Virus record (IMG/VR): IMGVR_UViG_3300031977_001036
Location: 1 to 30,132 of that record
DNA length: 30,132 bases
From: a virus
Reading direction: 5' to 3' (one strand)
The notes beneath the pieces were generated by a model. That model saw only the letters and a program-made list of their open reading frames with translations, ran no database searches and was not told where the DNA came from. Position numbers and translations under genes: made by a program. Shown piece after piece: positions 4,098-28,265 of this stretch; position 1 is the first letter of the stretch; each line of letters begins with the position of its first letter.

Positions 4098-4118
4098 TTG
4101 ACTTATTCACTATAATGA
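4098..4118 (+). promoter_or_regulatory. Late promoter-like motif, copy 1
   Basis: TTGACTTATTCAC is followed directly by TATAATGA. It is one of five intergenic copies of a shared element (others at 12470, 19738, 26386, 28244). It ends within the Shine-Dalgarno sequence of the 4131 gene (GAGG at 4117-4120), only 12 bases before the ATG. If TTGAC were a sigma-70 -35 box, transcription would start at about the ATG and lose the ribosome site. A start inside the motif's right end, as in T7-type promoters, fits better. Confidence 0.55.
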
Positions 4119-4130
4119 GGAAATAAAATT

Positions 4131-4802
4131 ATGGACCCGATTACATTAGCAATTATAGGATCAGTAGCAGGGGCAGGTATATCCGCTCTACCATCTATTA
4201 TCCCAAGCAAGTTTGAAAGAGAACAAAAGAAAAGACTTGAAGCCTTACAGCGTAAAGAAGAGATGGGAACACTTGGTCTTACAGACAAAGAACGTGGTGT
4301 TCTTGAAGGCAGACTTGAAACAAAAGCAGATGCCGCAGAAGACTTCGCACAGCAAGAAAGAGAAAGATTGCTTGCTACACAATCAGGTGGGGCTACATCT
4401 GGGGCAAGGCTCCTTGGAGCGCAAGTAGCAAGCGAACAGGCAAGAGAGCAGAACAGAGCAATAGACCAATCAATTGCCGAGCAAGACCTTGCTAAACAGC
4501 AGAGACAGATTGATGAGATCCGTGCTTTGGAAGCAGCACAAGGTCAGTATGCTGCTAATAGATCGCAAGCCATCGCTGGTGTTGTTGGTTCTGGTGTTGA
4601 GGCTGGCTTTGGAGCAGCAGCACAGCAGAAGATAATTCAGGGGAATATGACCCCAAGTGCTAATTCTGTAAATGCTATTAGCGAATTATATGGTATTAGT
4701 GAAGATCAGGCAAGAGGACTTCTTGAAGTTTCAGCAAAGAACCCAGAAGCCTTGCGTTTATATCAAACACTAAATACCCCAACAGGAACAGGCGGGCAGT
4801 AA
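4131..4802 (+). CDS. Internal virion / ejection protein, T7 gp14-like by position (223 aa)
   Basis: A hydrophobic N-terminal stretch (residues about 4-25, ITLAIIGSVAGAGISALPSI) could insert in membrane. It is followed by a long charged, Gln/Glu/Ala-rich coiled-coil region (about 28-130). A second small-residue-rich hydrophobic segment (IAGVVGSGVEAGFGAAA, about 145-165) precedes a Thr/Gly-rich tail. T7 gp14 is 196 aa, precedes gp15 and gp16, and forms an outer-membrane channel during ejection. The same order, membrane-prone N-terminus and length occur here. It is the first gene behind promoter-like motif copy 1. Confidence 0.55.
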   Translation: MDPITLAIIGSVAGAGISALPSIIPSKFEREQKKRLEALQRKEEMGTLGLTDKERGVLEGRLETKADAAEDFAQQERERLLATQSGGATSGARLLGAQVASEQAREQNRAIDQSIAEQDLAKQQRQIDEIRALEAAQGQYAANRSQAIAGVVGSGVEAGFGAAAQQKIIQGNMTPSANSVNAISELYGISEDQARGLLEVSAKNPEALRLYQTLNTPTGTGGQ

Positions 4803-4805
4803 ACT

Positions 4806-7001
4806 ATGGGTATAAAAAATGTAAACGGACAGAATGCTTATGTAATTGAAGCACCTGCCTTTGAAAGTAGAACTTCAAGAGGCGAGGGTTACGCTCAATA
4901 CATTACCAATCTTCGTTGGAAGATGTGGGAAGAAGCACAGAAATCTATTCAAGTTGAGATGGAATTTGAGAAGATGGCGTATCAAGAACAGATGCGTTTT
5001 CTTCGCACACAGCAATCACAGATCCAAAAAGATATTGCTGCTACAAATAGACGACTTGCTGACTTGGATAGGATAGAGGCTGATAAGAAGGCTGCTCTTT
5101 CGCAGCGTAACGCATCAGCACAAAACACACAGAACGCACAGACACGTTCATTACAATTACAGGCACAAGGCACTTCATCTACTACGACTGGTAGAACAGC
5201 AAGCACACCTTCATCTGCTACGAGAACAAGAAGCGATGTTCTTGGTGACCTTTCTGGTGATACACAAGATAGTTTCCAGAGGGTTCAAGAAGCCGCAAAC
5301 ATAGCAGGTGGTAGTGAAACTGACGCATCAGCAAGAATTACTACCCAAGCAAACAAAGCGATGGAACGTGGTAATTTTCAGTTAGGTGCTGGCGGTGGTG
5401 TTACTGCTGGTGACGAACAAGCATTCAAAGCCAGTATTGTAGCAGCCGAAGTTGAACGTGCTGGTGATGCTGCCGAAGCAGCAGGAGGAAGTAGAGATGC
5501 CGCAGAGACAGAAGCGTATAGTGCTTTTAGTGCTGATTACCGCAGCGATTATGATAATGTATTACAGACAGCACCCCCCATATCAGGAACAGGTGGAGGT
5601 CGTGTTGCCGTCCCACCAACCACTACTACGAGAAGCGGTAGAAGGGTTCCAAAAGCAGAAGACTTGGCGGAAGGTTCCGCTCCTGATTATAAAACAGCCA
5701 GAGAAGCCCTGATTGCCGAGAGAGAAAGATTACAAACACAACTTACTGGACTTCAACAGCCCGATGTTCCGCAGTTTGATATGTTGGAAAGAACCCGTGG
5801 TAAGTTCCAGCAGTCTTATGGTGAAGGTGGATTTGGTTTAGCACCAAGACCTACCAGAGCCATTCCTCGTTTTGATGAACCTGCCGCACTACGTTTAGCA
5901 CAAGACCTTGCGGAACAGGGAGCAAGTGAGGAAGTAGCACGTTTTCAAGCAGCCAATCCTGATGTAACAATTACACCAGAACAGATGGCTTCCCTTCGTA
6001 GACAGGGTGCCTTGTCTATGCTAAATCAAATGGGTGGTCGTGAAGTAGCAGCAAAAGACTTTTTAGATTTTAGAGAAACCGAACCTGCTGTAACAGATGA
6101 AGGTGTTGCTCCTACAAGGGCTATGCCTGATCTACCAGCAGACGAACCAGTAGAACCACCACCCGAAGTGGATGGTCTTTTCCCATCACAAGAAGTTATA
6201 GAGCAGGCAAGAAAAGAAAGAACAATTCCAGTTAGACCAGCACCAGAACAGATGCCTCCACCAATAGACGCTTCACTTGAAGGTCGTGTTGGGACACCTT
6301 CCTTTATGGAAGGATCAAGAATGTCTCTTCCACCAGTTCAGCGTAGTCTTACTGACTTTGAATATCTGGAACAGATGAGAGCGATAGGTGCCGAGGAAGA
6401 AGCACTACGTAACTTACAGACAGAAAGTTTTAGAAGACAACTTGCTGATGATGACTTGCGTAGACAGGCTCTTGTAAGAGCCGTCCCTGTTGATGAGACT
6501 ACACCAGTTCAGCCCACTATACTACCAAGACCAATTGATAGAACAGGGCAGACAATAACTTCCCAGTTGCCTCCAAGTGAAGTGCCTACAAGAATTATGG
6601 GTCCAACGGGAGAAACTATAACAGAACTTCCATCACCAGCCGCAAGAGCAGAAGAGCAAGAGAAACGTATTGCTAATACTACGATGGAGCGTAGGCAGAA
6701 GTATAAACTAAATGTAATCAAGGGAGCCGAACGTCTTGCTTCCAGACCAAAGAAGTTTGAGCGTATAGCCAAACCAAACCTCGCACCAGAGGAAAGAAGA
6801 TCGCAGGTCGCTCCATATGTAATTGTTGTAGATAATCTTTACGATACAAATACAAGGGAGATGTCTGCTGCTGATGCGATTAGATCATCATATATGGAAC
6901 TAAATAGGGTTTACGCAGATGAACCAAAGGTAAGAGAGCAGGCACAAGAATATCTCTTGGCGAAGGATCTTCTACAAGCACAAATAGACAACCCAGAATA
7001 G
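4806..7001 (+). CDS. Internal virion protein, T7 gp15-like by position (731 aa)
   Basis: Residues about 30-105 are a strong Gln/Glu/Lys coiled coil (EEAQKSIQVEMEFEKMAYQ region). A low-complexity Ser/Thr/Gln/Ala linker follows (about 105-150), then Ala/Glu-rich helical and Pro-rich segments with repeated PxPxD/E runs (about 440-610). No catalytic motif is visible. The length is close to T7 gp15 (747 aa), and the gene sits between gp14-like and gp16-like genes, 3 bases after the first and 11 before the second. Likely role: part of the internal core that is ejected and forms the periplasmic DNA conduit. Assignment is by synteny and size; sequence similarity to gp15 is not evident by eye. Confidence 0.5.
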   Translation: MGIKNVNGQNAYVIEAPAFESRTSRGEGYAQYITNLRWKMWEEAQKSIQVEMEFEKMAYQEQMRFLRTQQSQIQKDIAATNRRLADLDRIEADKKAALSQRNASAQNTQNAQTRSLQLQAQGTSSTTTGRTASTPSSATRTRSDVLGDLSGDTQDSFQRVQEAANIAGGSETDASARITTQANKAMERGNFQLGAGGGVTAGDEQAFKASIVAAEVERAGDAAEAAGGSRDAAETEAYSAFSADYRSDYDNVLQTAPPISGTGGGRVAVPPTTTTRSGRRVPKAEDLAEGSAPDYKTAREALIAERERLQTQLTGLQQPDVPQFDMLERTRGKFQQSYGEGGFGLAPRPTRAIPRFDEPAALRLAQDLAEQGASEEVARFQAANPDVTITPEQMASLRRQGALSMLNQMGGREVAAKDFLDFRETEPAVTDEGVAPTRAMPDLPADEPVEPPPEVDGLFPSQEVIEQARKERTIPVRPAPEQMPPPIDASLEGRVGTPSFMEGSRMSLPPVQRSLTDFEYLEQMRAIGAEEEALRNLQTESFRRQLADDDLRRQALVRAVPVDETTPVQPTILPRPIDRTGQTITSQLPPSEVPTRIMGPTGETITELPSPAARAEEQEKRIANTTMERRQKYKLNVIKGAERLASRPKKFERIAKPNLAPEERRSQVAPYVIVVDNLYDTNTREMSAADAIRSSYMELNRVYADEPKVREQAQEYLLAKDLLQAQIDNPE

Positions 7002-7012
7002 GATAATAATTT

Positions 7013-10000
7013 ATGGCTCCACCACCTACCGATCAGGAAATCGCACGTATTATTGCTATACAAGATGAAGAAAAAAGAAATCTTGAATTGTATAGACTTA
7101 TGGATAAGCGTAAACGTGCGTATGTAAGAGAAAGAACTAACGAACTTTTGGAAACATCTGTGTTCGCAGGAACACCTATGGAAGCACAGGTTCAAGCAGC
7201 ACAAGAATTTGAAGAGGATTTTATGATGCCTCTTCAAAATATCTATGGTGAATTACCAGAAAAGGTTTTTCAATTACAGGTTCCTCTTCCCACAGAAATA
7301 GATGAACCAGCACCACCTATGGATGTTCCCTTGGTTGGTGGCGAGCCTAACTTTGTTATGGCTGCTCGTCCACAGACAAGAATGGAACCATCAATCGCAG
7401 AAAGAGAAAGTGCGAGGATAGGTGTAGAAAGTTCTATTGACTTTGCTAAATTAGAAGAAGCGTTTGTTGAACGTGAGGGTATGGAGGCAGACCAAGCAGC
7501 ACTTCAACGTAGAGCCATCCAGAGGGCGTATGAAGCCGAGAAAAGTGCGAACCCTACCCAAACCCCTGATGAAGTTTTTGAACGTGTTGTAGGGGAACTG
7601 GAAGCCCTCTCTGGCGTTTTTGAAGGTGAAGGTCCAACGCTGGAAGACCAACAGGGTCAAAGACGTGGACCAGCAGATCCACTATACCAAACTTTTGTTA
7701 GACAGAGACAGGCAGGTCAGCCTGTTCCAGATTTATCAAGATCGCAGTTGGCTTACTTTGATACAATTTATAAGCAACAGCAGCAAGATTTACGCACACA
7801 GATTACAGAAAGTAGAACTGGTGAGAAGCAAAGATACTATCGTCAGGCTGATGGTAGTGAAGTTCTTGCTGATGCCTATGATGCTATGGCTGCGAACAAT
7901 CCTGAATTCCCAACGTTGAAGGGAACAGACGCAGAATTTATACGTGAACTACCAGCAGGCGAAGCAGAAGTTATTGCTGGAACTATACAGGCAGGTTCTA
8001 TGCCTGACCTATGGTGGGCTGATCCTGAAAAGAAACCAAAGGTTCTTGCTAATCCAGAAGACTATACATCGTTAGGAATTTTTAGTTCTACTACACCATA
8101 CGGGGGACAAGTTGAAACACCCGTAGGTTGGTTGCTACGTTCTGCTCTAATTGTTCCAAACACTATTGCTGGTTCTGTTAGTGACGTTGCTATTCCTAAT
8201 ATTATGTTAGACGAAGCAGGAGAAGAAGAACGTGTTGAGCGTAGACCAGAACTTTACAAAGATAGTCCAGTTCTTCTAAACATCGCAGAGAACAGAGGCT
8301 TCACTATGGAAATGAATGAAGCCGCTGATATTATGGATTACGGCACAACTGGTAAGTTTGCTGCTACTGCTTTTGGTTTTGGTCTTGACCTTCTTGATCC
8401 ATCCTTCGGTATGGTTGGTGGAACTTTGAAGGGTGGTAAGACAGCCGTTCAAATGGCGAAGGCACGTAGAGCCATTTATGGTGGCGAAGCAATTTCATCT
8501 ACACTTTTTCAGTCAGGTAAGGCTGGTGCTGGTGAAGGACTTTCTTACTTCCTGCGTGATACAAACTTTATATCTACACCAATAGAAGCAGTTGCGGGTA
8601 GAACCCAAGGTGGTCGTTTCGCAAACAGACTTGGGGTTGGTGATGTTCGTATGGCTATGGGTGCTGACCTTGCTGGTTCACTTGAAGCAAGAGCATTAGC
8701 CCGTGAAGCAGATACAGCCGTAGATGCTACGAGAGCAATTGACGAAGCAGGACTAACCAACACAACTTATAATAAAGAATTACAAAGAAGACTTGTTGAT
8801 ACAGATACACAGGTCGTTGGTGAATTTGAGCGTGTGCTTGATGATACTGATAAAGTTATTACAGCAGGCACAGAAAGTTCAAGGGTCGCTGATAATATGG
8901 TAAACGTAGTTGATGACTTTGATGCTGTTACAAGATCTCTTGATGAGATTGGTTCAACTGGTAGAGCAAGGGTAAAGGGAGAGGCTGCTGCGTTAGATGG
9001 ACTTGCTGAAAATATTGGAGCATTAGCCAAGCGTGACGCTGCTGTTGAAACTTTACTTCGTCAGGTTGACGAGGCTTCTTTTGTAAACGTTGGTGCGAGA
9101 GGCGGACAAAAAAGATTATTTGAATATGTAAAGGTTCTAAAAGAAGCAGGTGCTTTGCCTCGTCTACGTAGACAATTTGCTTTTGATAAGGCTATGGGCT
9201 ACGTCGTTGAGAATACAAAAGGTATGACTGGTCTTGATAGATTTAGAATGGTTACACCAAATACTTTTGCTACACCAGAAAAAGCAGCAGAGATCCTAAC
9301 AGATGTAAAAAATAAATCTTTGATTGGTGCTGTTGGAGAACAGATCGCAAAGTTTCCTGATGAGGGACTACCAGTTGTAGAAAAGATTTCTACACAAGAG
9401 ACAAGGGTTAGTTCACAAGGAGCCAAGGGTATAACCCGTAAGGCTGAACCTGCTTTTGATTTCAATAGAATTACAGATGATATGCTTACCGAAGGCACAG
9501 CCGCAGAAGCAAGAGAAACTTTTGTTGATAGTCTTACTGACGTAGCACAAGAACTTCGTGCCTACAATAAAATATCTAACACAACTTACGATGAAATCCT
9601 TTCCAACTTGGCGGAAGGTTTTATTACCACACGTAATTACAGACAACTTGTTTCTGGAACAATTGATTTATATGCCGAAGGAACACAGGCAGCGTTGCGT
9701 GGTAAAGATATTTCTAAACTACCAGCAGTAGAAGCAAACAGATTACTTGATCCTTTGGAGATGCGTTCCTTTGCGAGAGGAACACTACGCAAGTTTTATG
9801 ATAAATATATTATGGGAGCAGGTCCAACTGAAAGCCGTGCGATTACACCAGCACAAAGACAATTGGTAAAGAACGCACAGCAGCAAGCAAGTAATATGGA
9901 TACAACTTTGCGTCAGGGTGTAAAGCGTTTGGAGACACCAGACGAAGCAGCCAAGTATGGAACTACACCTATTACTGATAAGCAACAGGCTATTGGTGCG

Positions 10001-12469
10001 ATGATTGTAGGTGAACGTATGCCTACGTCTGCTGGTGGTCGTGTTGATATGGGAACACTACGCCAAGAAGAAATCGTAGCAGATACTATGTCTTGGTATA
10101 TGAGAACTATGTTCTATACAGAGAAGACCACAGAAAGTCTGCTTGATAGTTTGCTTGGTTTCAAGAAAGTGTTTGAGAACCCAAATTCATTTTTATCTCC
10201 ACAAGGTAAAGCACTTCTACAACAATCAATTGAAGACGCAGCAAAAAGAGCAACAAGAGATCCCAGTAGATATTGGGATGAGATGATGGATGTTGTTGCT
10301 GACTTCAAACAAAATATAATTACTGATCCAGAAAACTTGATGCCCCGTGTTCGTAGAGGTTCTATCGTTGACGTTCAAACGGCAAACAAGGGTAAGGTTC
10401 CAGCAGAGATACAAGTTGGTTCATATTACTGGGCTGAAAGCACACGTATTATGGATAATACAATCAAGGAACTATTCTCAACAGATCCAGCCTTCAACGC
10501 ATTTACTTACATCACCAAGGGTGATGATGTAGGTGCCTCTGCTATGAGACGTTTAGGACGTGAAACTGGGGCAAATCCAGAGCAAATATACAGAGAATTT
10601 ATCAAGCAACGTGCTGTTAGGCAGGTAGTAGAGGGTAGAGGAACTGCTCTTGAAATCTTGCGTCTAAATGAAGATTTTTGGGATGCTGCTGTTAGAGCAG
10701 GAGCAGACCCAAGTTCACCAAAGATGTCTACTTGGAAACAAAAGATTGATGCTTATAGGGCAGACCCAAACAATCTTATGAATGAATTAGGCTTGGTTAC
10801 TGAAAATGTTTTTATGCGTGACCTATTCTTGAAGGGTGATGATGCGGCACACGCTTTTGTTCTTCGTAATAATATCAACACACAGGACTTTGGTTCTACA
10901 TATTCATCAGTCAATCGTATTGTTGAGGATCTTGCTGGTCCAGAAAATAGTAAATTCCTTGAAGCAGTATTGGGACGTGATGCTGTTGATGAACTACAAG
11001 AAGCAATCAAGGCTGGTAAGTCTAATGGTTTCTCTCGTTATGTTGATACAGCATTACGCAAAGCCACAGGCAAAAAAGATTTCAAACGTGTTATTGATAG
11101 TTTGCTTTATGGTATGCGTTTGATAAACAACTTACGTTATACAATTCTTCTATCAGCAAGAACACGCTTCCACGGAGCAAACATTCTTACAGCCCCGTTC
11201 ATAACCTATTCAACTATCGGGCAGATCCCTAATGGAGCAAGGGGACTATCTGTATTTACACAAGGTTACTTCCGTGGAAACAAGGGAAGAATGAAAATTA
11301 TTGAAGCACCAGACGGACGTATCTATACTTATGGTGAGATCGCTGATGGTCTTATCAACGCAGGTATTCGTAGTGAATTTGGTTTCATTACTGATGTTGC
11401 TACACAGCAAAGAATTATTGCTTACGCAAATGCGAAGGGTGTAAAGACACCTTTGAAAACAGCAAGCGTAAAAGCAGGGCAGGCAGCACAAGACGTAATC
11501 CTCGCAGAAGATATGGCTTGGAGAGCAGGTGTAGCAGTAAAGGCTTTGGAAGAGGGCAGATCGTTTGATGAGGCTATGAACTTGGCTCGTCGTTCTATGT
11601 TTGACTATAACGATATGACTGCTTTTGAGAAGGGACTATCAGGCTACGCATTTATTTTCTATGCTTTCGCAAGACAAAACTTTGCTACTATGCTTCGTAA
11701 TATGATTGATCCAAGAGGATGGAAGCGTATTACTAATGTTCTAAAAACTGAACGTGGACTTGAAGCACTTGCTAATACAGCATACGGAACAGAGATGGTC
11801 CCAGAACAATTCTATCCTGATTATATGAACGCTCGTATAACTTACAGAAAGATTGCTTCTAAACCAAGTAGAGATGTTTACACTAACGGACCACCTATCC
11901 CACCGATAGATGCTATGGTTATGTTAGGAACCTTGATGAAGAAGGGCGGGTATAGCGAATTGCTACAACGTCAATTACACCCAACCTTCGCCCAGTTGCT
12001 AAACGTAGAAACATTCAGGACTGGTAATAAAGAATTACGACCAGAACACGCAGCACTTATAAGTTTGTATGCTGGTAAGGATCCAGTTGATATTGCTAAT
12101 TTCTTTGCTCTAATTGTGGGTGGTGATGTTATACCTGTGCCTTCAACAGACGATACTGCTATTGATGGTTTCAAGTATCCACTATCACCAGAGCAGCAAA
12201 AGAATTATAAGTTCTATGAACGTTGGGCTTTACAATTCACAGGCTTGGGTTCTATGACTACTGACTACGCAAGATTGTTTAGTCCAGAGGGAACACCCAC
12301 AGAAGATCTATCTACGTTTGAACGCTTCCTTGGCTTCGGCACAGCAGCGTCTACACCTATCCGTGCTGCTCGTCCAGCACAGGTTAGTCAGTATGATATA
12401 CAATCAAGGATAGGAGCAATCAACAAAAGATTGCGTGAGATGAAAGAAGAAGAGAAAAAAGAAAGATAA
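7013..12469 (+). CDS. Giant internal virion protein, T7 gp16-like by position (1818 aa)
   Basis: This is the largest gene, covering 18% of the window. Acidic, helix-rich repeats fill residues about 1-350. Hydrophobic stretches occur near 363-385 (LLRSALIVPNTIAGSV), 448-475 and 1370-1395, and there is a long Ala/Asp/Glu helical middle. Near 1530-1570 a motif FDYNDMTAFEKGLSGYAFIF is followed by ARQN. It resembles the FDYsDLTpFEr...PFy.w.RkN motif I associate with very large ejected phage proteins. T7 gp16 is 1318 aa and carries an N-terminal lytic transglycosylase; I cannot see that catalytic domain here. It closes the gp14/15/16-like block, and the next promoter-like motif starts one base after its stop. 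Confidence 0.55.
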   Translation: MAPPPTDQEIARIIAIQDEEKRNLELYRLMDKRKRAYVRERTNELLETSVFAGTPMEAQVQAAQEFEEDFMMPLQNIYGELPEKVFQLQVPLPTEIDEPAPPMDVPLVGGEPNFVMAARPQTRMEPSIAERESARIGVESSIDFAKLEEAFVEREGMEADQAALQRRAIQRAYEAEKSANPTQTPDEVFERVVGELEALSGVFEGEGPTLEDQQGQRRGPADPLYQTFVRQRQAGQPVPDLSRSQLAYFDTIYKQQQQDLRTQITESRTGEKQRYYRQADGSEVLADAYDAMAANNPEFPTLKGTDAEFIRELPAGEAEVIAGTIQAGSMPDLWWADPEKKPKVLANPEDYTSLGIFSSTTPYGGQVETPVGWLLRSALIVPNTIAGSVSDVAIPNIMLDEAGEEERVERRPELYKDSPVLLNIAENRGFTMEMNEAADIMDYGTTGKFAATAFGFGLDLLDPSFGMVGGTLKGGKTAVQMAKARRAIYGGEAISSTLFQSGKAGAGEGLSYFLRDTNFISTPIEAVAGRTQGGRFANRLGVGDVRMAMGADLAGSLEARALAREADTAVDATRAIDEAGLTNTTYNKELQRRLVDTDTQVVGEFERVLDDTDKVITAGTESSRVADNMVNVVDDFDAVTRSLDEIGSTGRARVKGEAAALDGLAENIGALAKRDAAVETLLRQVDEASFVNVGARGGQKRLFEYVKVLKEAGALPRLRRQFAFDKAMGYVVENTKGMTGLDRFRMVTPNTFATPEKAAEILTDVKNKSLIGAVGEQIAKFPDEGLPVVEKISTQETRVSSQGAKGITRKAEPAFDFNRITDDMLTEGTAAEARETFVDSLTDVAQELRAYNKISNTTYDEILSNLAEGFITTRNYRQLVSGTIDLYAEGTQAALRGKDISKLPAVEANRLLDPLEMRSFARGTLRKFYDKYIMGAGPTESRAITPAQRQLVKNAQQQASNMDTTLRQGVKRLETPDEAAKYGTTPITDKQQAIGAMIVGERMPTSAGGRVDMGTLRQEEIVADTMSWYMRTMFYTEKTTESLLDSLLGFKKVFENPNSFLSPQGKALLQQSIEDAAKRATRDPSRYWDEMMDVVADFKQNIITDPENLMPRVRRGSIVDVQTANKGKVPAEIQVGSYYWAESTRIMDNTIKELFSTDPAFNAFTYITKGDDVGASAMRRLGRETGANPEQIYREFIKQRAVRQVVEGRGTALEILRLNEDFWDAAVRAGADPSSPKMSTWKQKIDAYRADPNNLMNELGLVTENVFMRDLFLKGDDAAHAFVLRNNINTQDFGSTYSSVNRIVEDLAGPENSKFLEAVLGRDAVDELQEAIKAGKSNGFSRYVDTALRKATGKKDFKRVIDSLLYGMRLINNLRYTILLSARTRFHGANILTAPFITYSTIGQIPNGARGLSVFTQGYFRGNKGRMKIIEAPDGRIYTYGEIADGLINAGIRSEFGFITDVATQQRIIAYANAKGVKTPLKTASVKAGQAAQDVILAEDMAWRAGVAVKALEEGRSFDEAMNLARRSMFDYNDMTAFEKGLSGYAFIFYAFARQNFATMLRNMIDPRGWKRITNVLKTERGLEALANTAYGTEMVPEQFYPDYMNARITYRKIASKPSRDVYTNGPPIPPIDAMVMLGTLMKKGGYSELLQRQLHPTFAQLLNVETFRTGNKELRPEHAALISLYAGKDPVDIANFFALIVGGDVIPVPSTDDTAIDGFKYPLSPEQQKNYKFYERWALQFTGLGSMTTDYARLFSPEGTPTEDLSTFERFLGFGTAASTPIRAARPAQVSQYDIQSRIGAINKRLREMKEEEKKER

Positions 12470-12491
12470 TTGACGTTTACTACATTTATGA
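12470..12491 (+). promoter_or_regulatory. Late promoter-like motif, copy 2
   Basis: TTGACGTTTACTACA followed by TTTATGA, immediately downstream of the 1818-aa gene. The ribosome site of the next gene (AGAGGAAA, from 12493) starts just after the motif, so the implied leader is very short. The left half is identical to copies at 19738 and 28244 except for the sixth base. Confidence 0.55.
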
Positions 12492-12507: not shown

Positions 12508-13278
12508 ATGTCTTATGGAGATCCATACGCAGAAAAAGCAGCAGCAGCCGCAGGCACGGAAGACTTGCCTTGGGTAAATGCTGATATATCAACTTGGACT
12601 TTGAATAACCCATCAGGGACAGGCACACCTAACGCTACGCAAGATGGTGCTGGTAATATTACATTCACTTGGGCTGGCTTGACTAATTCAATTCAGGATA
12701 ATGTTATTACTGCTGGTAGTGTAATCAACAGCCCAAGAATTTACATACCACTTGTTAGACCTGACGGCACACCATATCGTTTTGATGATGCCGAACAGAA
12801 CATTACAATTCGTATGAAGATATTTGATTTTGATAGACCAGCAGACGTAGTAGCAGATACTAACAGCAGAATGAATGCTGTTATTGGTTTGGCTGCTGAA
12901 CCTACACAAACATCAACAAACGATTTGAAGTTTGCTGGATTGGGTGCTGGGTATACAGGCACAAACGCAAACAGAAGTTTTATTTGTTATGCTGGTGCCG
13001 CCAACACACTTACAAACCTAAACCACAGATCAGCCATCGGCACACTTACTTATGCTGGTAATGGTGGTGGTGCTGTGGATGTTTTGACTTTTACTGATGC
13101 TGGATCAAACCAAGTCCGTTCATCACGTAATACTAACTTGGTTCCACTTGGAACGAGAACTGGACCTATTTATTTGATGCTTGCTTGGGGTCCATCTGGG
13201 ACAGGTATAGACCTGACTGGTGAAAGCATAAAGATGAAGATTGCTTATCAGGTGGTTTCATTTGATAAGATTACATAA
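12508..13278 (+). CDS. Virion-associated beta-rich protein (256 aa)
   Basis: Family not recognised. An Ala-rich N-terminus (EKAAAAAGTEDLPW) precedes a Gly/Thr/Asn-rich beta body with lectin- or jelly-roll-like composition, including IYIPLVRPDG and IYLMLAWGPSG. There is no signal peptide or catalytic motif. It is first behind promoter-like motif copy 2 and occupies the slot of the tail fibre gene (gp17) in T7, after gp16 and before the lysis genes. A tail fibre, spike or capsid-surface protein is the best inference. Confidence 0.5.
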   Translation: MSYGDPYAEKAAAAAGTEDLPWVNADISTWTLNNPSGTGTPNATQDGAGNITFTWAGLTNSIQDNVITAGSVINSPRIYIPLVRPDGTPYRFDDAEQNITIRMKIFDFDRPADVVADTNSRMNAVIGLAAEPTQTSTNDLKFAGLGAGYTGTNANRSFICYAGAANTLTNLNHRSAIGTLTYAGNGGGAVDVLTFTDAGSNQVRSSRNTNLVPLGTRTGPIYLMLAWGPSGTGIDLTGESIKMKIAYQVVSFDKIT

Positions 13279-14302: not shown

Positions 14303-14662
14303 ATGGCTACAAAGAAAGATGCCTGCTATAAAAAAGTAAAAAGATCTTACAAGAAGTTTCCTTCTGCCCGTGCGTCACAAGCAATTGCTAAATGTCGTAA
14401 GGGTAAAGGCAAAGTTCGTAAGACCAAGAAAGGTGCTTCCCTAAAAAGATGGTCCAAAGAGAAGTGGGTGAATACCAAGACTGGTAAACCCTGCGGACAC
14501 AAGGGTGCCTCAAAGGCTCAATACTGCCGCCCCAGCAAGCGTGTTTCTTCCAAGACACCCAAGACTACCAAACAAGTTTCAGCAGCCACCAAGCGTAAGC
14601 AGCAGGCTCGTAAGGCATCAGGTCGTAGAGCCACGCCATTACGTAAACGAAAGAAGAAATAG
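14303..14662 (+). CDS. Basic Cys-containing phage protein (119 aa)
   Basis: The ribosome site CAGGAGGT lies 10 bases before the ATG. The product is Lys/Arg-rich at both ends around a distinct core, WSKEKWVNTKTGKPCG followed by AQYCRPSKRVS (residues about 50-82). I recall this core from a small conserved family of phage and algal-virus proteins (DUF5872-like), but could not check. An N-terminal part with AxCYKKVK and AIAKCRKGKG adds two more Cys. It ends convergently, overlapping by 2 bases the 3' end of the minus-strand tRNA. Role unknown; DNA binding is an inference from charge. Confidence 0.6.
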   Translation: MATKKDACYKKVKRSYKKFPSARASQAIAKCRKGKGKVRKTKKGASLKRWSKEKWVNTKTGKPCGHKGASKAQYCRPSKRVSSKTPKTTKQVSAATKRKQQARKASGRRATPLRKRKKK

Positions 14663-14731
14663 AACTACTGGGATTTGAACCCAGACCATCACCTTCGTAG
14701 GGCTGTATGCTCTCCATTACACCATAGTTCC
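14661..14731 (-). tRNA. tRNA-Arg-like (anticodon ACG), imperfect anticodon stem
   Basis: Read on the minus strand, the 71-base sequence gives acceptor GGAACTA/TAGTTCT (7 pairs, one G-T). The D stem is GTGT/GCAT with loop AATGGAGA, and the T arm is a perfect CTGGG-TTCAAAT-CCCAG. The anticodon loop CTACGAA is that of tRNA-Arg(ACG). The anticodon stem CAGCC/GGTGA pairs at only three of five positions; the outer two are mismatched. CCA is not encoded. It may be a functional phage tRNA with an odd stem, a decaying tRNA, or a tRNA-derived attachment site. No integrase is visible to support the last. Confidence 0.7.
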
Positions 14732-14782
14732 ACTACATATAAAATAATTATTATTTATATTCTCTGTGTAACCCAAATGAAA

Positions 14783-14817
14783 AACCCCCTCTTCCAATCA
14801 ATTACGAAGAGGGGGTT
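14783..14817. terminator. Strong bidirectional terminator
   Basis: A perfect 12-bp inverted repeat, AACCCCCTCTTC and GAAGAGGGGGTT, surrounds an 11-base loop. T-rich sequence follows on the plus strand (TTAGTTTGTTTT), and the minus-strand reading ends in TTTTTCATTT. It lies between the convergent plus-strand late genes and the minus-strand block, so it can stop transcription from both sides. Confidence 0.9.
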
Positions 14818-14849: not shown

Positions 14850-15212
14850 TTAGGAGGATTGTATGTCGGTAGAAGGTTTGTCTGGTCCCTTCATAATAGA
14901 GATTTCGTCAAGTAGTTCATCACATTTCTTTTGTAGAAATATCTGTCTCTTGCTTGGCTCTCTGTATATATCATAACACGAAACGTTCTCCAAGTCCACA
15001 GATAAAAACCATTTAGGTGGTGCTTGTATTCTGCTCGCCAGATAGTCAGTCTTCTCCTCCGTCAAGTATGATAGGGGGAGGACACGATCCCGCCAAGGCT
15101 GTCCTGACTTCATACGCCACAGCCTCACCGATAGGATTGCGTGTCTCCTTTGTAGCAGATCCACTACGATGTAGTCGTTCCTTGTTGTTCTTTGTATGTT
15201 TAGACATTTCAC
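14850..15212 (-). CDS. Unknown protein (120 aa), GTG start
   Basis: I chose GTG at 15212 because it overlaps the stop of the upstream gene as GTGA, with AAAGGAG 5 bases upstream; a longer start at 15239 would overlap much more. The product has a charged, aromatic-rich body (LWRMKSGQPWRDRVLPLSYL, then APPKWFLSVDLEN) and a helical C-terminus (FLQKKCDELLDEISIM). No family is recognised. An ATG 5 bases downstream in another frame opens a second frame of 53 codons (15207 to 15046). The third gene of the minus-strand block, it ends 33 bases from the terminator. Confidence 0.6.
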   Translation of the reverse strand: MKCLNIQRTTRNDYIVVDLLQRRHAILSVRLWRMKSGQPWRDRVLPLSYLTEEKTDYLASRIQAPPKWFLSVDLENVSCYDIYREPSKRQIFLQKKCDELLDEISIMKGPDKPSTDIQSS

Positions 15213-15772
15213 TTTTGCTCCTTTGTTTTTACAATCCATTTATTATCTTCCATCCAAAAAGTCAAAGACCAGCCCGCTTCCTCACATTCCCAACCAATAC
15301 GAACTATCTGTCCTTTGTTATGAATGTTTCCGTCACGGCAACTGGTCTTACGTAAATTGTTTTTTTCTATATAATCTTTTAGTATCTGTGTCTTGAACCA
15401 ATATAATTTATCTGTATGTTCGTTCACAAATATAAGATAGTCAAGGTGTCCTGCTTCTGTGGCTCTCCACCACCCAGCCCTTACTGATCCATAATTATCT
15501 TTCCATTCTTCAATAACCATAGTGTCGTAGGCATAGCCCTTGGCTGACGCACCAGATAAAGTTTTTACTTCTACCCCTGTGGTGGATCTGTTTTTATTCC
15601 AGAGGATATAATCATTCTCACCATCTAAACCTAAATGTTCGTAGATGTAGTGTGGTGTCTTCGCATAGTCCTGAATAGTTCCCCGTGCTTTACACCAGTC
15701 AAACAATCCCTCTGCCTTCTTCTCACCTCTATCACCCTGCTTCAAGGATGTGTTGAAATTCTTATTCGCCAT
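15209..15772 (-). CDS. PD-(D/E)XK-like nuclease candidate (187 aa)
   Basis: The N-terminal part has a nuclease-like pattern: Glu17 in GDRGEKKAEGL, Asp54 in GENDYILWNK, and Glu68-Val-Lys70 in TGVEVKTLSG. This is the spacing and E-x-K ending of PD-(D/E)XK enzymes, which include phage Holliday-junction resolvases and endonucleases. A second conserved-looking patch is AGHLDYLIFV (about 108-117). It overlaps the upstream gene by 11 bases and the downstream gene by 4. Possible roles are recombination or resolution of replication intermediates, or host DNA attack. The fold assignment is by motif reading only. Confidence 0.5.
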   Translation of the reverse strand: MANKNFNTSLKQGDRGEKKAEGLFDWCKARGTIQDYAKTPHYIYEHLGLDGENDYILWNKNRSTTGVEVKTLSGASAKGYAYDTMVIEEWKDNYGSVRAGWWRATEAGHLDYLIFVNEHTDKLYWFKTQILKDYIEKNNLRKTSCRDGNIHNKGQIVRIGWECEEAGWSLTFWMEDNKWIVKTKEQK

Positions 15773-16382
15773 CTTCTATTTCCCCCTTCAATTTATTTAG
15801 AAAATCTTTTCTGTGAAGATAAAAAGTTTTCTTTGTTACTGACCCTTCTGGGTAGTTGATAAGTCTGCCGTTGTCCCATTCCAATTGGATGAGATCCAGA
15901 GAATAAAGATAAATAAATTTCTCTCTCTCCGTAGCATAGTTGTCTACGTAATTTTTCATCACGTCAATAATATCATTTGTTTCAAACATAAGTTCTCCTA
16001 ATGGTGTTGTTGCTACAAGTAATTCATATTCAGGTAGGTATGTAAAACACAAAGTCTTCTTGGCTTCCTGTTGTCCTACCACAAATTCTCTATAATATAT
16101 TCTTCCTACAAAGGCTTTGACTTCTACCTTTACCCAAGCACGGAATTGCTTTTGTAATCCAATATCATTCCAATCCCAATAGTCAGTAAGCCACTTCTCC
16201 CTGAACCTATTGGTGCTGCTTCTGTTGTGTGTCTTGATGTGGAGCCATAGTTCCATAGCAAAGTCATCAAGATCCCAAGACTTATAGTGAAGTATCGTTC
16301 CTAACTTATTGGCTGGTGATAGGAACCTGTAAGTAATTTCTTTACAGACTTCTAATAATTTTATATTTATATAATCATTCAT
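15762..16382 (-). CDS. Possible sigma-factor-like regulator (206 aa)
   Basis: The start chosen is ATG at 16382, because TTAGGAGAT sits just upstream; the frame extends 13 codons further without a better site. Residues 36-52 (WDLDDFAMELWLHIKTH) and 78-97 (KQFRAWVKVEVKAFVGRIYY) resemble the D-D-x-x-Q-E-x-x-x-x-[LF] and F-x-x-W-x-x-x-x-x-[KR] pattern of ECF sigma region 2. The C-terminal TEREKFIYLYSLDL and SVTKKTFYLHRKDFLNKL could form a region 4-like helix-turn-helix. The resemblance is loose and could be chance. It is first in the divergent block, behind a sigma-70-type promoter and a leader hairpin. Confidence 0.4.
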   Translation of the reverse strand: MNDYINIKLLEVCKEITYRFLSPANKLGTILHYKSWDLDDFAMELWLHIKTHNRSSTNRFREKWLTDYWDWNDIGLQKQFRAWVKVEVKAFVGRIYYREFVVGQQEAKKTLCFTYLPEYELLVATTPLGELMFETNDIIDVMKNYVDNYATEREKFIYLYSLDLIQLEWDNGRLINYPEGSVTKKTFYLHRKDFLNKLKGEIEDGE

Positions 16383-16409
16383 ACGTTTATCTCCTAACTG
16401 ATTGTATCC

Positions 16410-16427
16410 AAGTCCCGCCAAGGACTT
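16410..16427 (-). promoter_or_regulatory. 5'-leader hairpin with TTGGCG loop, copy A
   Basis: On the minus strand AAGTCC-TTGGCG-GGACTT forms a perfect 6-bp stem with a 6-base loop. It lies 12 bases upstream of the ribosome site of the 206-aa gene. The same loop on a stem of different sequence occurs in the leader of the 322-aa gene at 18625-18642. Confidence 0.6.
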
Positions 16428-16453: not shown

Positions 16454-16482
16454 ATTATAACATATTATTAGTAGGTTCGCAA
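16454..16482 (-). promoter_or_regulatory. Sigma-70-type promoter for the minus-strand block
   Basis: Minus-strand reading: TTGCGA (16482-16477), a 17-bp spacer, and TATAAT (16459-16454), with a TG extension (ATGTTATAAT). Transcription would begin near 16447 and give a leader of about 65 bases containing the TTGGCG hairpin. The -10 region shares TGTTATAAT with the plus-strand promoters at 18257 and 18558. Confidence 0.65.
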
Positions 16483-17116: not shown

Positions 17117-17557
17117 ATGTTGAAAAGAAAAAAGAAAAGATCACAGCGAGACTGGGATTATGAGATAAAGAAATTAGATGAAGAGACACAACTGAAAGAT
17201 AGTTGGAGATATATTCCAATAGGTCTTGATACTTGGAAGTTAGATTACAGACACAACTATGATCCCACAGATGATTTGATTGAGAGCATAGATAGAAAGA
17301 ATAATCCAGAACAAAATAATATAATTGAAAAAGAATTACCTGCTGGTGTTGAGATGATTGAGAGACTAACACCTACCAAACAGAAAGTTGTTTTCTATTA
17401 TTTATGGGATGGTCTTTCGTTCAGTAAGATTGGAAAGATATTAGGTCTAACCAAACAAAGAATACACCAGATCTATTGGTCTGCTATTGAAGATCTCAAA
17501 GTAATTTATGGAGGTGATAATGTCTTCTATGATTTCTTTGGTGGAGAGGAGGAATAA
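17117..17557 (+). CDS. Sigma-70 region 4-like DNA-binding protein (146 aa)
   Basis: The C-terminal half (residues about 84-130) reads as sigma region 4: LTPTKQKVVFYYLWDGLSFS, then KIGKILGLTKQRIHQIYWSA. The helix-turn-helix is at about 99-118, with the typical L-T-x-x-Q/E...G.S..EIG..LG.T..RI.QI pattern. The N-terminal 83 residues are charged with no clear region 2. It may be a truncated sigma-like factor, a phage regulator that redirects host RNA polymerase, or an anti-sigma or co-activator binding -35 DNA. The ribosome site AAAGGAG is strong. It lies in the early block and is a candidate reader of the late motif family. Confidence 0.7.
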   Translation: MLKRKKKRSQRDWDYEIKKLDEETQLKDSWRYIPIGLDTWKLDYRHNYDPTDDLIESIDRKNNPEQNNIIEKELPAGVEMIERLTPTKQKVVFYYLWDGLSFSKIGKILGLTKQRIHQIYWSAIEDLKVIYGGDNVFYDFFGGEEE

Positions 17558-18233: not shown

Positions 18234-18262
18234 TTGACGATGCCCCCCGAATATGTTATAAT
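18234..18262 (+). promoter_or_regulatory. Near-consensus sigma-70 promoter
   Basis: TTGACG (18234-18239), a 17-bp spacer, then TATAAT (18257-18262) with an extended TG (TGTTATAAT). The expected start near 18269 leaves a leader of about 16 bases before the ATG at 18285, just enough for the ACAGGAGAA ribosome site. Confidence 0.85.
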
Positions 18263-18534: not shown

Positions 18535-18563
18535 TAGACAAACCCAATAAAATGTGTTATAAT
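18535..18563 (+). promoter_or_regulatory. Sigma-70-type promoter for the 322-aa gene
   Basis: TAGACA (18535-18540), a 17-bp spacer, TATAAT (18558-18563), with TG extension. It shares the 18-base word TGTTATAATATATATATA exactly with the promoter at 18234. A transcript from about 18570 would carry a leader of roughly 108 bases with two hairpins. Confidence 0.8.
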
Positions 18564-18677: not shown

Positions 18678-19646
18678 ATGTCTAAAAATTATAATTGGAA
18701 CTGGGAACACCTAACCCAGATGAAACTAAAAGTAGGTGATCTTGTAATCGTTACACCCAACTACAACAAAACCACAGAGATGGCTATTGTTATTGACTTG
18801 GACTTGACGAACGGATACACACCACAGGAAATACAAAATAAATTTCCTAATTATAATCGCTATATGAATTACGATTTTGTGAAGAACCAGCATAATGGTA
18901 AGGCATATCGCTATGTTATGTTGGCTCATCCCAGTAAAGGAAATGAAATATATTTATTTCATCCCACGTATAGTCAGGATAGTTGGCGTGTAAATACGTT
19001 GGATCGTAAGTGGACTACCCCAACACAAGAAGCAGAAAAGAATAATAAAGTTATGCTGCGTAAGAAAGCAAACAACTATGTGTCTGCTGCGATAGATGAC
19101 TGGAAGATCAAGTATGGTGTAATGAAAGAATATAATAATTATATAAAAGAATTACATACCCAGTTTGGAGCAGGCAGCCGTCATCGTCATTCCAGTTCCC
19201 ATCAATACAATTGTGCTATGTGGTGCTTGGATAAAGAAAAGAAAATATTATATAAAAACTATTGTGATGTGCTGATAGATGTAATTGATAATCGTTGGGA
19301 CCATAACCCTAAATCTCTACGTGGATTGATCCAAGATGCTATACCATTAGCAGTAAAAGATAGAACAAATATAAATGTTCGTATTGGTAAAGAACAGATA
19401 GAATATAATATTAGTTTTATACACGATCAAGAATATCAGTATGACTGGATGAAGCAGATTGACTTTGATGAGAGAGATACAGAATATAATAATATTGTTT
19501 CTAATTGTCCTGCTGAACTAAAAGAATATTTACATATTCAAGCAAGAGATTTCTGGGGAACTACTGAATGGTATACTACAAGAATAAAAGATAGTTACAA
19601 TCATACACAGAGATATGAATACAACCTAACAGATAAGATTGAATAA
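18678..19646 (+). CDS. Unknown protein (322 aa)
   Basis: I do not recognise the family. Residues about 14-42 (LKVGDLVIVTPNYNKTTEMA region) look like a small SH3/KOW-type barrel start. The middle has a His-rich patch (GSRHRHSSSHQYNC, about 170-183) followed by two Cys, a possible metal site. The C-terminal part is charged and aromatic (YLHIQARDFWGTTEW). It is the largest early gene, preceded by its own promoter and structured leader and followed by an intrinsic terminator, so it forms a single-gene unit. With no replication gene visible elsewhere, a DNA-handling role is possible but unsupported by motifs. Confidence 0.6.
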   Translation: MSKNYNWNWEHLTQMKLKVGDLVIVTPNYNKTTEMAIVIDLDLTNGYTPQEIQNKFPNYNRYMNYDFVKNQHNGKAYRYVMLAHPSKGNEIYLFHPTYSQDSWRVNTLDRKWTTPTQEAEKNNKVMLRKKANNYVSAAIDDWKIKYGVMKEYNNYIKELHTQFGAGSRHRHSSSHQYNCAMWCLDKEKKILYKNYCDVLIDVIDNRWDHNPKSLRGLIQDAIPLAVKDRTNINVRIGKEQIEYNISFIHDQEYQYDWMKQIDFDERDTEYNNIVSNCPAELKEYLHIQARDFWGTTEWYTTRIKDSYNHTQRYEYNLTDKIE

Positions 19647-19737: not shown

Positions 19738-19758
19738 TTGACCTTTACTACATTATGA
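19738..19758 (+). promoter_or_regulatory. Late promoter-like motif, copy 3
   Basis: TTGACCTTTACTACA followed by TTATGA, directly after a terminator and ahead of the packaging genes. This copy is closest to the consensus of the five. The leader to the 19796 start is about 38 bases and AT-rich, with GAAGGAG as ribosome site. Confidence 0.6.
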
Positions 19759-19795: not shown

Positions 19796-20062
19796 ATGCC
19801 TCGTAGAGCATTACCAAGAAACCTTATGCGTAAGGCAGTCCACGAAAAGAATATAGAAGATTTTATCTGGGCGTGTCTTGAACTATCCTGTGTTGAATTG
19901 AAGAAGGACGGCAAGTCACAGACCTTCAACGGCAGAGACATACAATCATTTTTAGATCACCTAATCAAAATAGATAAAGATAAAAAAGATAGAGGTGAGA
20001 CTACTGCCGAAGATCCTAATAAAGTAAAAGAAATAAATGATTGGCTAAAACAGGTAAAGTAA
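19796..20062 (+). CDS. Putative small terminase subunit (88 aa)
   Basis: A helix-rich, charged protein: an N-terminal basic part PRRALPRNLMRKAV, a central helix with two Cys (FIWACLELSCVEL), and a C-terminal Lys/Asp helix ending INDWLKQVK. It lies one base upstream of the large terminase gene, where TerS genes usually sit, and has a fitting size for podoviruses. No TerS motif is diagnostic by eye, so the assignment comes from position and helical character. Confidence 0.5.
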   Translation: MPRRALPRNLMRKAVHEKNIEDFIWACLELSCVELKKDGKSQTFNGRDIQSFLDHLIKIDKDKKDRGETTAEDPNKVKEINDWLKQVK

Positions 20063-21586: not shown

Positions 21587-21835
21587 ATGGATGATAGAAC
21601 ACCTGCTACACAACGAGAACTAAAACCTCTGTATGCTTCAAGCCTGCGGTTGGTTACACCAGAAGGTTATATACGCTGTATCAAATGTCGTAAGGCATTT
21701 CCCCCAGCAGCATTTTATAAAAAAGATACAGATGGTATTGGGTTTGAAGACGAAGGGTTTTGTAAGGACTGCGTAAAGAAACATAGCAGAGAACATCTAC
21801 ACTTGACCTTTCCTAATAAAGTGAAGGGTAAATAA
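21587..21835 (+). CDS. Small zinc-finger protein (82 aa)
   Basis: Four Cys in two CxxC pairs, Cys31/Cys34 (RCIKCRKAF) and Cys59/Cys62 (FCKDCVKKH), are spaced as in a treble-clef or zinc-ribbon finger. The short His-rich C-terminal tail REHLHL lacks a complete HNH motif. It lies between TerL and portal with 2-base spacings, so it is likely a packaging accessory or DNA-binding factor. A shortened HNH-type finger is an alternative. Confidence 0.65.
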   Translation: MDDRTPATQRELKPLYASSLRLVTPEGYIRCIKCRKAFPPAAFYKKDTDGIGFEDEGFCKDCVKKHSREHLHLTFPNKVKGK

Positions 21836-21837
21836 TT

Positions 21838-23529
21838 ATGGCGAGAACAAATAAACAAATTATATCACTACTGCGTATTGTCCTAACGGAGCATAAAGAC
21901 TTCTGGGATACACAGATGGGTGAACTTCGTAGATACAAGAATGCCTATGAAAATAAATTCTGGGATGGCGAACTTGAATACGATGATAGTATGATCCGTG
22001 TTGAGACTGCGGATTGTTTTTCTTACGTTGAAGGTTTCATCGCTGCTCTGTTCTCAAAGGCTCCTGCTGTTGTTGTAGGTGCTGACGCAGCCAACGCTGC
22101 TGGTGATCCTGAATTAGCACAGGCAGCAGCAAATAGATTTTTATTTTCCCAGAGAGAACAATTAGAGATTGCTTCTCGTCTGGCTCTTATCTACCCTAAT
22201 GCTTATCTAAAACTTTCCCCCACCGACAGCGAGGAGATGCTTGAAAAGGTTTCCATTCGTGCTGTCCCTCCTTGGGAGGTCATAACGGATCGTGACGCTT
22301 CTGGCTGGAATACACAGCGTTTCTGCGGTCACACATACTACCTCACAATACCAGAAGCCCGTGATAGATTTGGTGCTAAACAATTCACGGCAGTTCCAAA
22401 GCAAGATTACTTTGGCTCTGGGGCAAGAGCGTATAGAGGTGGGGGTTCATCTTCTTTATATGGTGAGATAGGTGCTGAATACGCAGACCTACCTGATGAT
22501 TACCTTTACATAGAAGTTCTTGAATTCTATGATATGGCTTATGATAAATTATATTTTTGGTCGCCTAACTACAAGAACGGAGAGGAACTATTAGAGAAGT
22601 CTACCATTCCTGTTAGAACATACGACGATCAGCCACTATCTAACCTATCCCCACTATACTACGCACGTAAGCCTGAACGCCCTATGGAGGGCTTGTCTGC
22701 TGTTAGTAGGGTATACGATCAGTTCTATGAGAAAAACATTTTGAGAACCTACTGGGCTAATGCTATACGTAGAGACAGCCGCCAATACATTTATAAGGAA
22801 GGTGCCTTTGATGAAGAAGAATTAGCAAAGATTACCGCTGGTATTGATGGTGCTATGATTGCTACTGACGAGCAAACCCTTGCTGGTTTGATACAACCTG
22901 TTGGTGTAGAACCAATTAGCAGCAACTTTGATAGATACTTGAACTTTATTGAGGCAGACATCAACCGAGGATCTATCCTTGCTCCTTTCAGTAGAGGCGA
23001 AGCAACCAAGGCAACAGCCACAGAGATTACAGCCCTCGCTCAATATTCGGCAAGTGAGATTGGTAAGATGGCGAGAGAGCGTGATTATTCAATAGAAACA
23101 ATTGCTAAACTTTATTTACGCACACTATCCCTACTTGCTGACGAAGGAGACAAGGCTGTCCTTTCTTCTAATGGTATGGCGAAGGTTATTACCTCAAAAG
23201 ATTTACACGGCAAGTTCCGTATCTCTGCTTTGGATCAGGGCAACCAACCAATCGCAGATGCGATCAAGAAACAAAATCTTATTTCCCTACTACCAGTTCT
23301 TACTGGTTTAGGCGTTCCACAGGACAAATTGAAGGAAGAAATTATTAGGGCATACGAACTACCAGAAGACTTTTTGAAGCAGCCAGAACCCGTAGCAGAG
23401 GCTCCCAAAGTGGGTTCACGCAGCATACCAGCAGAGGGAGAACTTGAAGAAGGGACACCAACCCAACAAGAGACTGCCGCTGGAACATTAGCAGACGCAC
23501 TTACAGGTGCGGCTGATACAATACAATAA
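21838..23529 (+). CDS. Portal protein (563 aa)
   Basis: The dodecameric head-tail connector through which DNA is packaged. The position after TerL and before scaffold and capsid, the length, and the architecture fit podovirus portals. These show an N-terminal helical part, a WEVITDRDAS stem-entry region (about 146-155), long helices around ILAPFSRGEATKATATEITAL (quoted here as ILAPFSRG and ATEITAL), and an acidic Pro/Glu/Thr-rich tail after residue 520. No frameshift or truncation is seen. A sixth, degenerate copy of the late motif lies in the preceding coding end. Confidence 0.87.
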   Translation: MARTNKQIISLLRIVLTEHKDFWDTQMGELRRYKNAYENKFWDGELEYDDSMIRVETADCFSYVEGFIAALFSKAPAVVVGADAANAAGDPELAQAAANRFLFSQREQLEIASRLALIYPNAYLKLSPTDSEEMLEKVSIRAVPPWEVITDRDASGWNTQRFCGHTYYLTIPEARDRFGAKQFTAVPKQDYFGSGARAYRGGGSSSLYGEIGAEYADLPDDYLYIEVLEFYDMAYDKLYFWSPNYKNGEELLEKSTIPVRTYDDQPLSNLSPLYYARKPERPMEGLSAVSRVYDQFYEKNILRTYWANAIRRDSRQYIYKEGAFDEEELAKITAGIDGAMIATDEQTLAGLIQPVGVEPISSNFDRYLNFIEADINRGSILAPFSRGEATKATATEITALAQYSASEIGKMARERDYSIETIAKLYLRTLSLLADEGDKAVLSSNGMAKVITSKDLHGKFRISALDQGNQPIADAIKKQNLISLLPVLTGLGVPQDKLKEEIIRAYELPEDFLKQPEPVAEAPKVGSRSIPAEGELEEGTPTQQETAAGTLADALTGAADTIQ

Positions 23530-25212: not shown

Positions 25213-25215
25213 ATT

Positions 25216-26052: not shown

Positions 26053-26070
26053 TTATAAGGAGAACCAGTT

Positions 26071-26370: not shown

Positions 26371-26385
26371 ATATAAACAATTTAT

Positions 26386-26407
26386 TTGACGTTTTCTCTA
26401 ATAATGA
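26386..26407 (+). promoter_or_regulatory. Late promoter-like motif, copy 4
   Basis: TTGACGTTTTCTCTA followed by ATAATGA. It lies 15 bases after the 99-aa gene and gives the major capsid gene its own promoter with an unusually long leader (about 160 bases). No intrinsic terminator precedes it, so read-through from copy 3 is expected as well. Confidence 0.5.
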
Positions 26408-26565
26408 ACGGGCAACCTTTCCCTCCGTCAATCAATAGAACCTACGGGTCACCTTGCGATTATCTAAATGGTGAAGGAACTAAAAAACTAAATCCCATCA
26501 GGGACACTTTGTAATTTTAGATAATTCACAAAACCATATACTAAACTAAAAAGGATGAAAATATT
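26408..26565 (+). promoter_or_regulatory. Structured leader of the major capsid gene
   Basis: A non-coding 158-base leader. A perfect 10-bp pairing, ATTATCTAAA (26459-26468) with TTTAGATAAT (26516-26525), encloses a small hairpin CCC-ATCA-GGG (26494-26503). A short ACC-TACG-GGT hairpin lies upstream. The ribosome site is weak (AAGGATG, 26551-26557). Such a long folded leader ahead of the most abundant product could act on mRNA stability or translation. Confidence 0.45.
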
Positions 26566-27579: not shown

Positions 27580-27609
27580 TCATAGTTTCATATAAAGGAG
27601 ATAAAAATT

Positions 27610-28173
27610 ATGGCTACACAATCACTAATTCAATACCTTGAAACTTCACAGCAGGATGGGTTTGGGGCTGCTGTCCCAGTTGGACTTGCCGCTATGAACC
27701 GCCGCCAGACCGAGGTTTACCTCGCTGGCGAGGCTCTACTGGCTGGCGACTGGGTTGCTCTTGACCTTACTGCTGCGAGCGATCAGGTTAGTTCTGTTAC
27801 TATTGCGAAGGCTGATAGTAACAAAGGTGCTGGTGCTGGTGTGACTTCAACCGCTTCAATCGTGGTTGGTGTTGTGCTTGGACCCGCAAGCGAAAGAGAC
27901 GACGACGGCTCTGGTGGCGTAGTTTCTGGGGGTCAGGCTTCTGTCTGTATCCGTGGAATTTGCGAAGCCAAGGTTGACGGGTCTGGCGTTGCTGTTGCGA
28001 GGGGAGACACCCTTACAATTGACGCTACTGCTGGTAAGGCAGTCAAGGCTACTTACATCGGTAATGGTTCAGGTGCGGCTGCTGTCGCCCTTCCAAAAAT
28101 CTGTGGGTATTCACTTGATACTGCTGGTGCTGACGGAACTTTCACTTGCTATGTAACACCACACGTCACCTGA
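27610..28173 (+). CDS. Capsid decoration / stabilising protein candidate (187 aa)
   Basis: Ala/Gly/Val-rich and beta-prone, with repeated turns such as AGEALLAGDWVALDL, SIVVGVVLGPA and SGVAVARGDTLTID. This is a DUF2190-like pattern seen in phage proteins directly after the capsid gene. Base composition is clearly GC-richer than the genome average. A strong ribosome site (AAAGGAGAT) precedes it and an intrinsic terminator follows, so it ends the head operon. Confidence 0.65.
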   Translation: MATQSLIQYLETSQQDGFGAAVPVGLAAMNRRQTEVYLAGEALLAGDWVALDLTAASDQVSSVTIAKADSNKGAGAGVTSTASIVVGVVLGPASERDDDGSGGVVSGGQASVCIRGICEAKVDGSGVAVARGDTLTIDATAGKAVKATYIGNGSGAAAVALPKICGYSLDTAGADGTFTCYVTPHVT

Positions 28174-28202
28174 TAAGTTTTCAAGAACGTAAAGGAGATA
28201 TT

Positions 28203-28234
28203 GCCCCTTCCCCTCGCTGGGGTTGGGGCTTTTT
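28203..28234 (+). terminator. Intrinsic terminator after the head genes
   Basis: GCCCC-TT-CCCC, loop TCGCT, GGGG-TT-GGGGC, then TTTTTCTTT. The stem has the same TT/TT internal loop as the terminator at 19670. Promoter-like motif copy 5 starts 10 bases later. Confidence 0.9.
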
Positions 28235-28243
28235 CTTTATGAC

Positions 28244-28265
28244 TTGACCTTTACTATATTATTGA
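28244..28265 (+). promoter_or_regulatory. Late promoter-like motif, copy 5
   Basis: TTGACCTTTACTATA followed by TTATTGA, just after a terminator and ahead of the tail genes. The ribosome site ACGAGGAAA of the adaptor gene lies 6-14 bases downstream of the motif end. It would drive the adaptor, nozzle and, around the circular junction, the fibre genes. Confidence 0.6.

Follow-up and report, generated by a model that had tools for sequence, protein, structure and literature searches.

A compact late promoter family in an uncultured bacterial virus and candidate sigma-type proteins that may read it

We analyzed a 30,132-base IMG/VR record of an uncultured bacterial virus (the window, meaning this whole stretch of DNA) and found that a short motif recurs ahead of its virion genes. 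That the copies constitute one phage-specific late promoter family is well supported by sequence comparison. Transcription would start at or next to a GA dinucleotide, ~20 bases into the motif as counted from its left edge. On balance, we think that a split phage sigma probably retargets the host core RNA polymerase to these compact late promoters. A literature search turned up no earlier description of such a compact phage promoter.

The tail-gene ORF that leaves the right end of the window (30132) resumes at its left end (1), and a near-identical twin contig (L084) bridges the junction, with eight extra bases; the genome, of ~30.14 kb, is therefore nearly complete and circularly permuted. 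It encodes a large terminase. The capsid protein was assigned to phrog_9953, and the portal protein weakly resembles that of SU10. Searches of a phage collection returned no match to the window at the DNA level and none to the portal protein. A protein of 1818 amino acids (7013-12469, plus strand), which we considered as a virion polymerase and dropped for want of any family match, is probably a virion or injection protein. The window also carries a tRNA-Arg (acg) gene (14659-14732, minus strand) and a gene for a basic DUF5872 protein (14303-14662, plus strand; 6e-14).

Five motif copies had been reported in the initial annotation, and all five were present, in gaps between plus-strand genes as it had said. 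Copy 1 (4098..4118) precedes gene 4131-4802 and has orthologous copies in G001, G002, G003, G018, G019, and G040; copy 2 (12470..12491) precedes gene 12508-13278, with copies in G001 and G003. Copy 3 (19738..19758), which is also found in relatives, lies before a putative small terminase gene (19796-20062), copy 4 (26386..26407) precedes the major capsid gene, separated from it by a leader of ~160 bases, and copy 5 (28244..28265) lies before a tail gene (28284-29912). Copies 3 and 5 directly follow terminator-like hairpins, again as reported. Copy 1 reads TTGACTTATTCACTATAATGA and copy 4 reads TTGACGTTTTCTCTAATAATGA. The consensus originally written for the family is matched exactly by copy 3 but is too strict for every other copy.

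A two-block matrix trained only on these five copies ranked them first in the window at 22.2 to 26.9 bits, while the next matches scored 16.4 bits or less. Shuffled windows gave 0.025 matches per window at the threshold of the five copies. The motif is real and set well apart by the matrix, but five was too low a count, as two copies had been overlooked. The sixth (21803..21824, plus strand), which overlaps the end of the preceding ORF, lies ahead of the portal gene (21838-23529) and has orthologues in G001, G002, G015, L005, L008, and L010. A probable seventh (14891..14911, minus strand) lies inside a 129-amino-acid ORF, at the end of a minus-strand ORF, and occupies the same position in G001, G003 (L005/L076), and G015. 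A GAAGG/CCTTC hairpin comes next, and 75 bases further along lies a terminator hairpin at 14785-14815 that has A and T runs on both sides. This copy and its terminator may produce a short late transcript on the strand opposite a late operon's end.

The core of the motif consists of a left box, TTGACnTTTnCT, then 7 to 9 A/T-rich bases free of G, and then GA followed by purines. We built a logo from 45 de-duplicated copies, which were chosen for having TTGAC; that box is invariant among them. Position 6 of the logo is variable, positions 7 to 9 are TTT, C11 and T12 occur in 98% and 87% of copies, positions 13 to 17 are A or T with almost no G, and the first GA falls at positions 19 to 22, with purines after it. 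The left part of the motif, upstream of the hairpins that follow several copies, is the best conserved.

The initial annotation had proposed scanning both strands and related genomes with a matrix. When we applied the window-trained matrix to six relatives, 19 of 24 matches were intergenic, although noncoding sequence makes up only 2 to 16% of these genomes; shuffled relatives gave 0.1 to 0.4 matches per genome. The matches precede the same genes as in the window, and the recurrence at the same virion genes across diverged phages supports the dedicated late promoter family that had been suspected. A strict 22-base pattern, TTGACNTTTNCTAYATTATGAG, was found in four IMG/VR contigs, all from this virus clade. 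Motifs of the form TTGACCG...TACATTGA in distant relatives were read as coding for a conserved peptide of the portal and were dropped. Compact motifs precede late genes and host-type promoters precede early genes, with the exception of the minus-strand copy, which lies inside the end of an early operon.

The position of the RNA start is best judged from copies packed tightly behind terminators. In L067, the terminator stem CCCC is followed immediately by TTTACTTTTTATTATATATAGGAGGATCCTGCTATG, and the tail-gene copies in L128, L125, L010, and L058 sit similarly close behind a terminator. In all five, the ribosome site (GAGG, GAGGG, or GGAGG) begins at motif position 20 or 21. Were the start 26 to 28 or 36 bases from the left edge, the RNA would lack this site; the placement of these sites after such tight gaps therefore argues for a start at the right end of the motif. 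Copy 4 is followed directly by a leader hairpin, ACGG-gcaacctttccct-CCGT (26408..26428, plus strand), in which 95% of cells pair and three pairs are changed on both sides, all in L093. A short hairpin stands at this edge in the capsid copies as a group, and hairpins of other sequences follow the minus-strand copies. Because the shuffle tests on these hairpins were individually weak (P values of 0.02 to 0.27), we use them as support only. Taken together, the ribosome sites behind terminators, the purine start, and the leader hairpins support the earlier suggestion that transcription begins where the motif ends.

We examined the genome for proteins that could read such a promoter. A gene adjoining the terminase genes (17117..17557, plus strand) encodes a 146-amino-acid sigma-70 region-4 protein (PF04545, 2e-7; PHROG sigma factor, 3.5e-11; TIGR02937, 3.9e-10) that keeps the canonical DNA-reading helix. 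On the minus strand, 15762..16421 encodes a divergent 219-amino-acid protein that we tentatively call sigma-like for its region-2-like part and C-terminal helix-turn-helix (HTH). This protein itself gave no significant match to any sigma family; a profile comparison reached an E value of 0.0078 at 5% probability, a sequence search against solved structures returned nothing, and its predicted fold was poor (pLDDT of 61) with no Foldseek match. Its positional counterparts (G015 and L021; L078-L080) show weak region-2 matches and a C-terminal HTH, with E values of 0.003 and 0.037 against Sigma70_r2. From these matches, the phage appears to encode a sigma-type region-4 protein, while the assignment of the 219-amino-acid protein as a region-2 carrier is weakly supported. 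The sigma-like gene is immediately followed, in the window as in L021, by a possible PD-(D/E)XK nuclease gene (15209-15772, minus strand; PF11645, E value of 0.056).

Three host-type early promoters, each with a 17-base spacer and a TG extension, were found in this region. TTGCGA-17-TATAAT (16454..16482, minus strand) precedes the sigma-like gene, and G001, G002, and G003 retain an extended -10 promoter at the same position. TTGACG-17-TATAAT lies at 18234..18262 (plus strand), and TAGACA-17-TATAAT (18535..18563, plus strand) precedes gene 18678-19646.

Comparison between lineages ties the region-4 protein to the compact motif. Relatives of this protein were found in 16 of 50 records checked, several of them fragmentary, and phages that carry the gene have promoters of the compact kind, among them versions diverged to TTTAC and TAGAC. 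Ahead of the capsid gene, phages of the window type have the compact motif, whereas another clade (16 loci) has TTGACA-17-TAnnnT at ~123 to 137 bases before that gene; the region-4 profile had no match in the records checked from this clade, eight of which are 30 to 35 kb long. The best ordinary-promoter match before the capsid gene scored 7 to 10 of 12 in motif-bearing phages versus 10 to 11 in the ordinary-promoter clade. In G011 and its relatives, TTTACnTTTT... precedes the portal, capsid, and tail genes, and the TTTAC box accompanies an altered recognition helix in the region-4 protein (RQNIKYHY instead of KQRIHQI). L078-L083 have TAGACAAAAyCAAC...AATAGGA before the portal gene; L078, L082, and L083 also have a TTGACGTTC element, which in L082 lies before the capsid gene. 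In the capsid tree, the ordinary-promoter phages form one block, so the link between region-4 presence and promoter type is confounded by descent, and a Fisher test on the records overstates the independence of this evidence. In another lineage, a further repeated element, ACCATAGTTACTGCTTTTT, precedes the large terminase and portal genes of L066 (1113 and 2740) and L068 (781 and 2433). The early region of G011 includes a 423-amino-acid protein (L126, 8899-10167, minus strand) that has no clear family match.

The initial annotation had likened the motif to T7-type promoters, which would be read by a single-subunit phage RNA polymerase. The geometry of ~20 bases, the A/T-rich stretch right before a purine start, and the lineage-specific sequences would all suit this reading, yet the polymerase is what we could not detect. 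PF00940 had no match at E values up to 10 in the near-complete window genome or in seven relatives, and no single-subunit polymerase was found in 19 relatives at 0.001, despite working controls (T7, 1e-110; N4 RNAPII, 1e-14). A hidden split polymerase as in N4 is also excluded as far as PF00940 can detect. Moreover, with the start placed at GA, its distance from the left edge ranges from 19 to 22, a variation of 3 bases where a fixed distance would be expected of a T7-like promoter. The 8-mer TCACTATA shared with the T7 promoter is indeed in copy 1, but only there, and it is absent from its orthologues in G002 and G019. We consequently regard the T7-type reading as improbable, and the region-4 and sigma-like proteins are better candidates for the reader.

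The same landmarks bear on the remaining explanations. Ordinary host sigma-70 promoters with TTGAC as the -35 element would account for that box being invariant in the aligned copies, which were however selected for it. No -10 element is present at 16 to 18 bases, several copies would start at or past the ATG, and the ordinary promoters that occur elsewhere in the genome, and before the capsid gene in relatives, look different. The motif is too compact for a -35/-10 pair, as had been argued at the outset, and we give this explanation very little credence. An RNA-level element kept in late mRNAs, such as a processing site or a translation leader, rather than a promoter, seems equally remote; although hairpins and ribosome sites follow several copies, several also lie right behind terminators, at points that call for a new start, the capsid copy is ~160 bases from its gene, and the best-conserved left part is upstream of the hairpins. 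We take more seriously, while still thinking it rather unlikely, a promoter in which TTGAC is a true -35 and WATAAT a true -10, held 7 to 9 bases apart instead of 16 to 18 and read by host polymerase altered by the region-4 protein, with a start ~26 to 28 bases from TTGAC. The A/T columns anchored on GA do spell WATAAT, the spacing varies by ~1 base either way like that of -35/-10 promoters, TTGAC is the classical -35, and a region-4 protein is encoded. Such a start, however, would be downstream of the terminator-adjoining ribosome sites in L128, L125, L010, L058, and L067 and inside the conserved stem of the capsid leader. The second A of a -10 element is usually its strongest base, but here it is A in just 56% of copies.

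We return to a split phage sigma as the explanation we prefer. Host-type promoters would drive the early genes, including that of the sigma-like protein (15762-16421, minus strand), which together with the region-4 protein (17117-17557) would steer host core polymerase toward the compact promoters. Reading of the TTGAC box would fall to the region-4 protein, and the sigma-like protein may help to open the A/T-rich part. In favor of this model are the presence of region 4 with compact promoters, the box and recognition helix that differ together, and the host-type promoter kept before the sigma-like gene; against it are the weak sigma identity of the 219-amino-acid protein and the confounding by descent. 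Sigma region 4, seated on the beta flap, normally has its DNA site ~35 bases ahead of the start rather than ~20, and this reach counts against the shorter geometry, for which we know of no precedent. The full version of the model is more tentative, and we regard it only as a possibility: a split sigma whose DNA-reading region 4 sits on a -35-like box ~20 bases from the start, at least about one helical turn closer than in known holoenzymes, with box and helix co-changing between lineages. If the start truly lies ~20 bases from TTGAC, the notion that sigma region 4 keeps a fixed position on RNA polymerase is challenged. The model gives a testable late-transcription switch in a group of uncultured phages that lack close relatives in culture, and nature supplies variants of the region-4 protein and its box (TTGAC, TTTAC, and TAGAC; compact versus ordinary).

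In outline, this arrangement resembles those of T4, phiEco32/SU10, and SPO1, none of which matches it in motif or geometry. In T4 late transcription, gp55 and gp33 make up a split sigma, in which gp33 has no DNA-reading role and transcription requires the sliding clamp gp45 (PMC2988020). Both systems would act on late virion genes through host core polymerase and two small phage proteins (sigma-2-like and sigma-4-like), and both lack a host-type -35; unlike T4, the phage studied here has a region-4 protein with a DNA-reading helix and a TTGAC that is invariant in copies selected for it. No clamp gene was matched among the subset of proteins scanned. The T4 late -10 element has the consensus TATAAATA, and the aligned copies have no box like it. 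The ECF-type sigma of phiEco32/SU10 (gp36/gp32) serves middle and late promoters through the motif tAATGTATAtA, 6 to 8 bases upstream of the start (PMC4281155). Shared features are a podovirus with a phage sigma, one short motif near the start without a -35/-10 pair, and early genes on host sigma-70 promoters; here, however, the motif is longer and two proteins are candidates, where in phiEco32/SU10 one protein carries sigma. The tAATGTATAtA motif of the phiEco32 gp36 promoter did not appear in the 45-copy logo. T7-like promoters are likewise compact, end at the start site, and have lineage-specific sequences, but here no single-subunit polymerase gene was found, the sequence is unrelated, and the spacing is variable. 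SPO1 expresses its middle and late genes with the sigma factors gp28 and gp34 (PMC4496689, PMC9429907), and as proposed here, phage sigma proteins take over from the host sigma for later genes. Bacillus subtilis SigO/RsoA is a two-part sigma, and it is like our model in that the parts of sigma can be divided between two proteins; promoters of the SPO1 and SigO/RsoA types have normal -35/-10 spacing.
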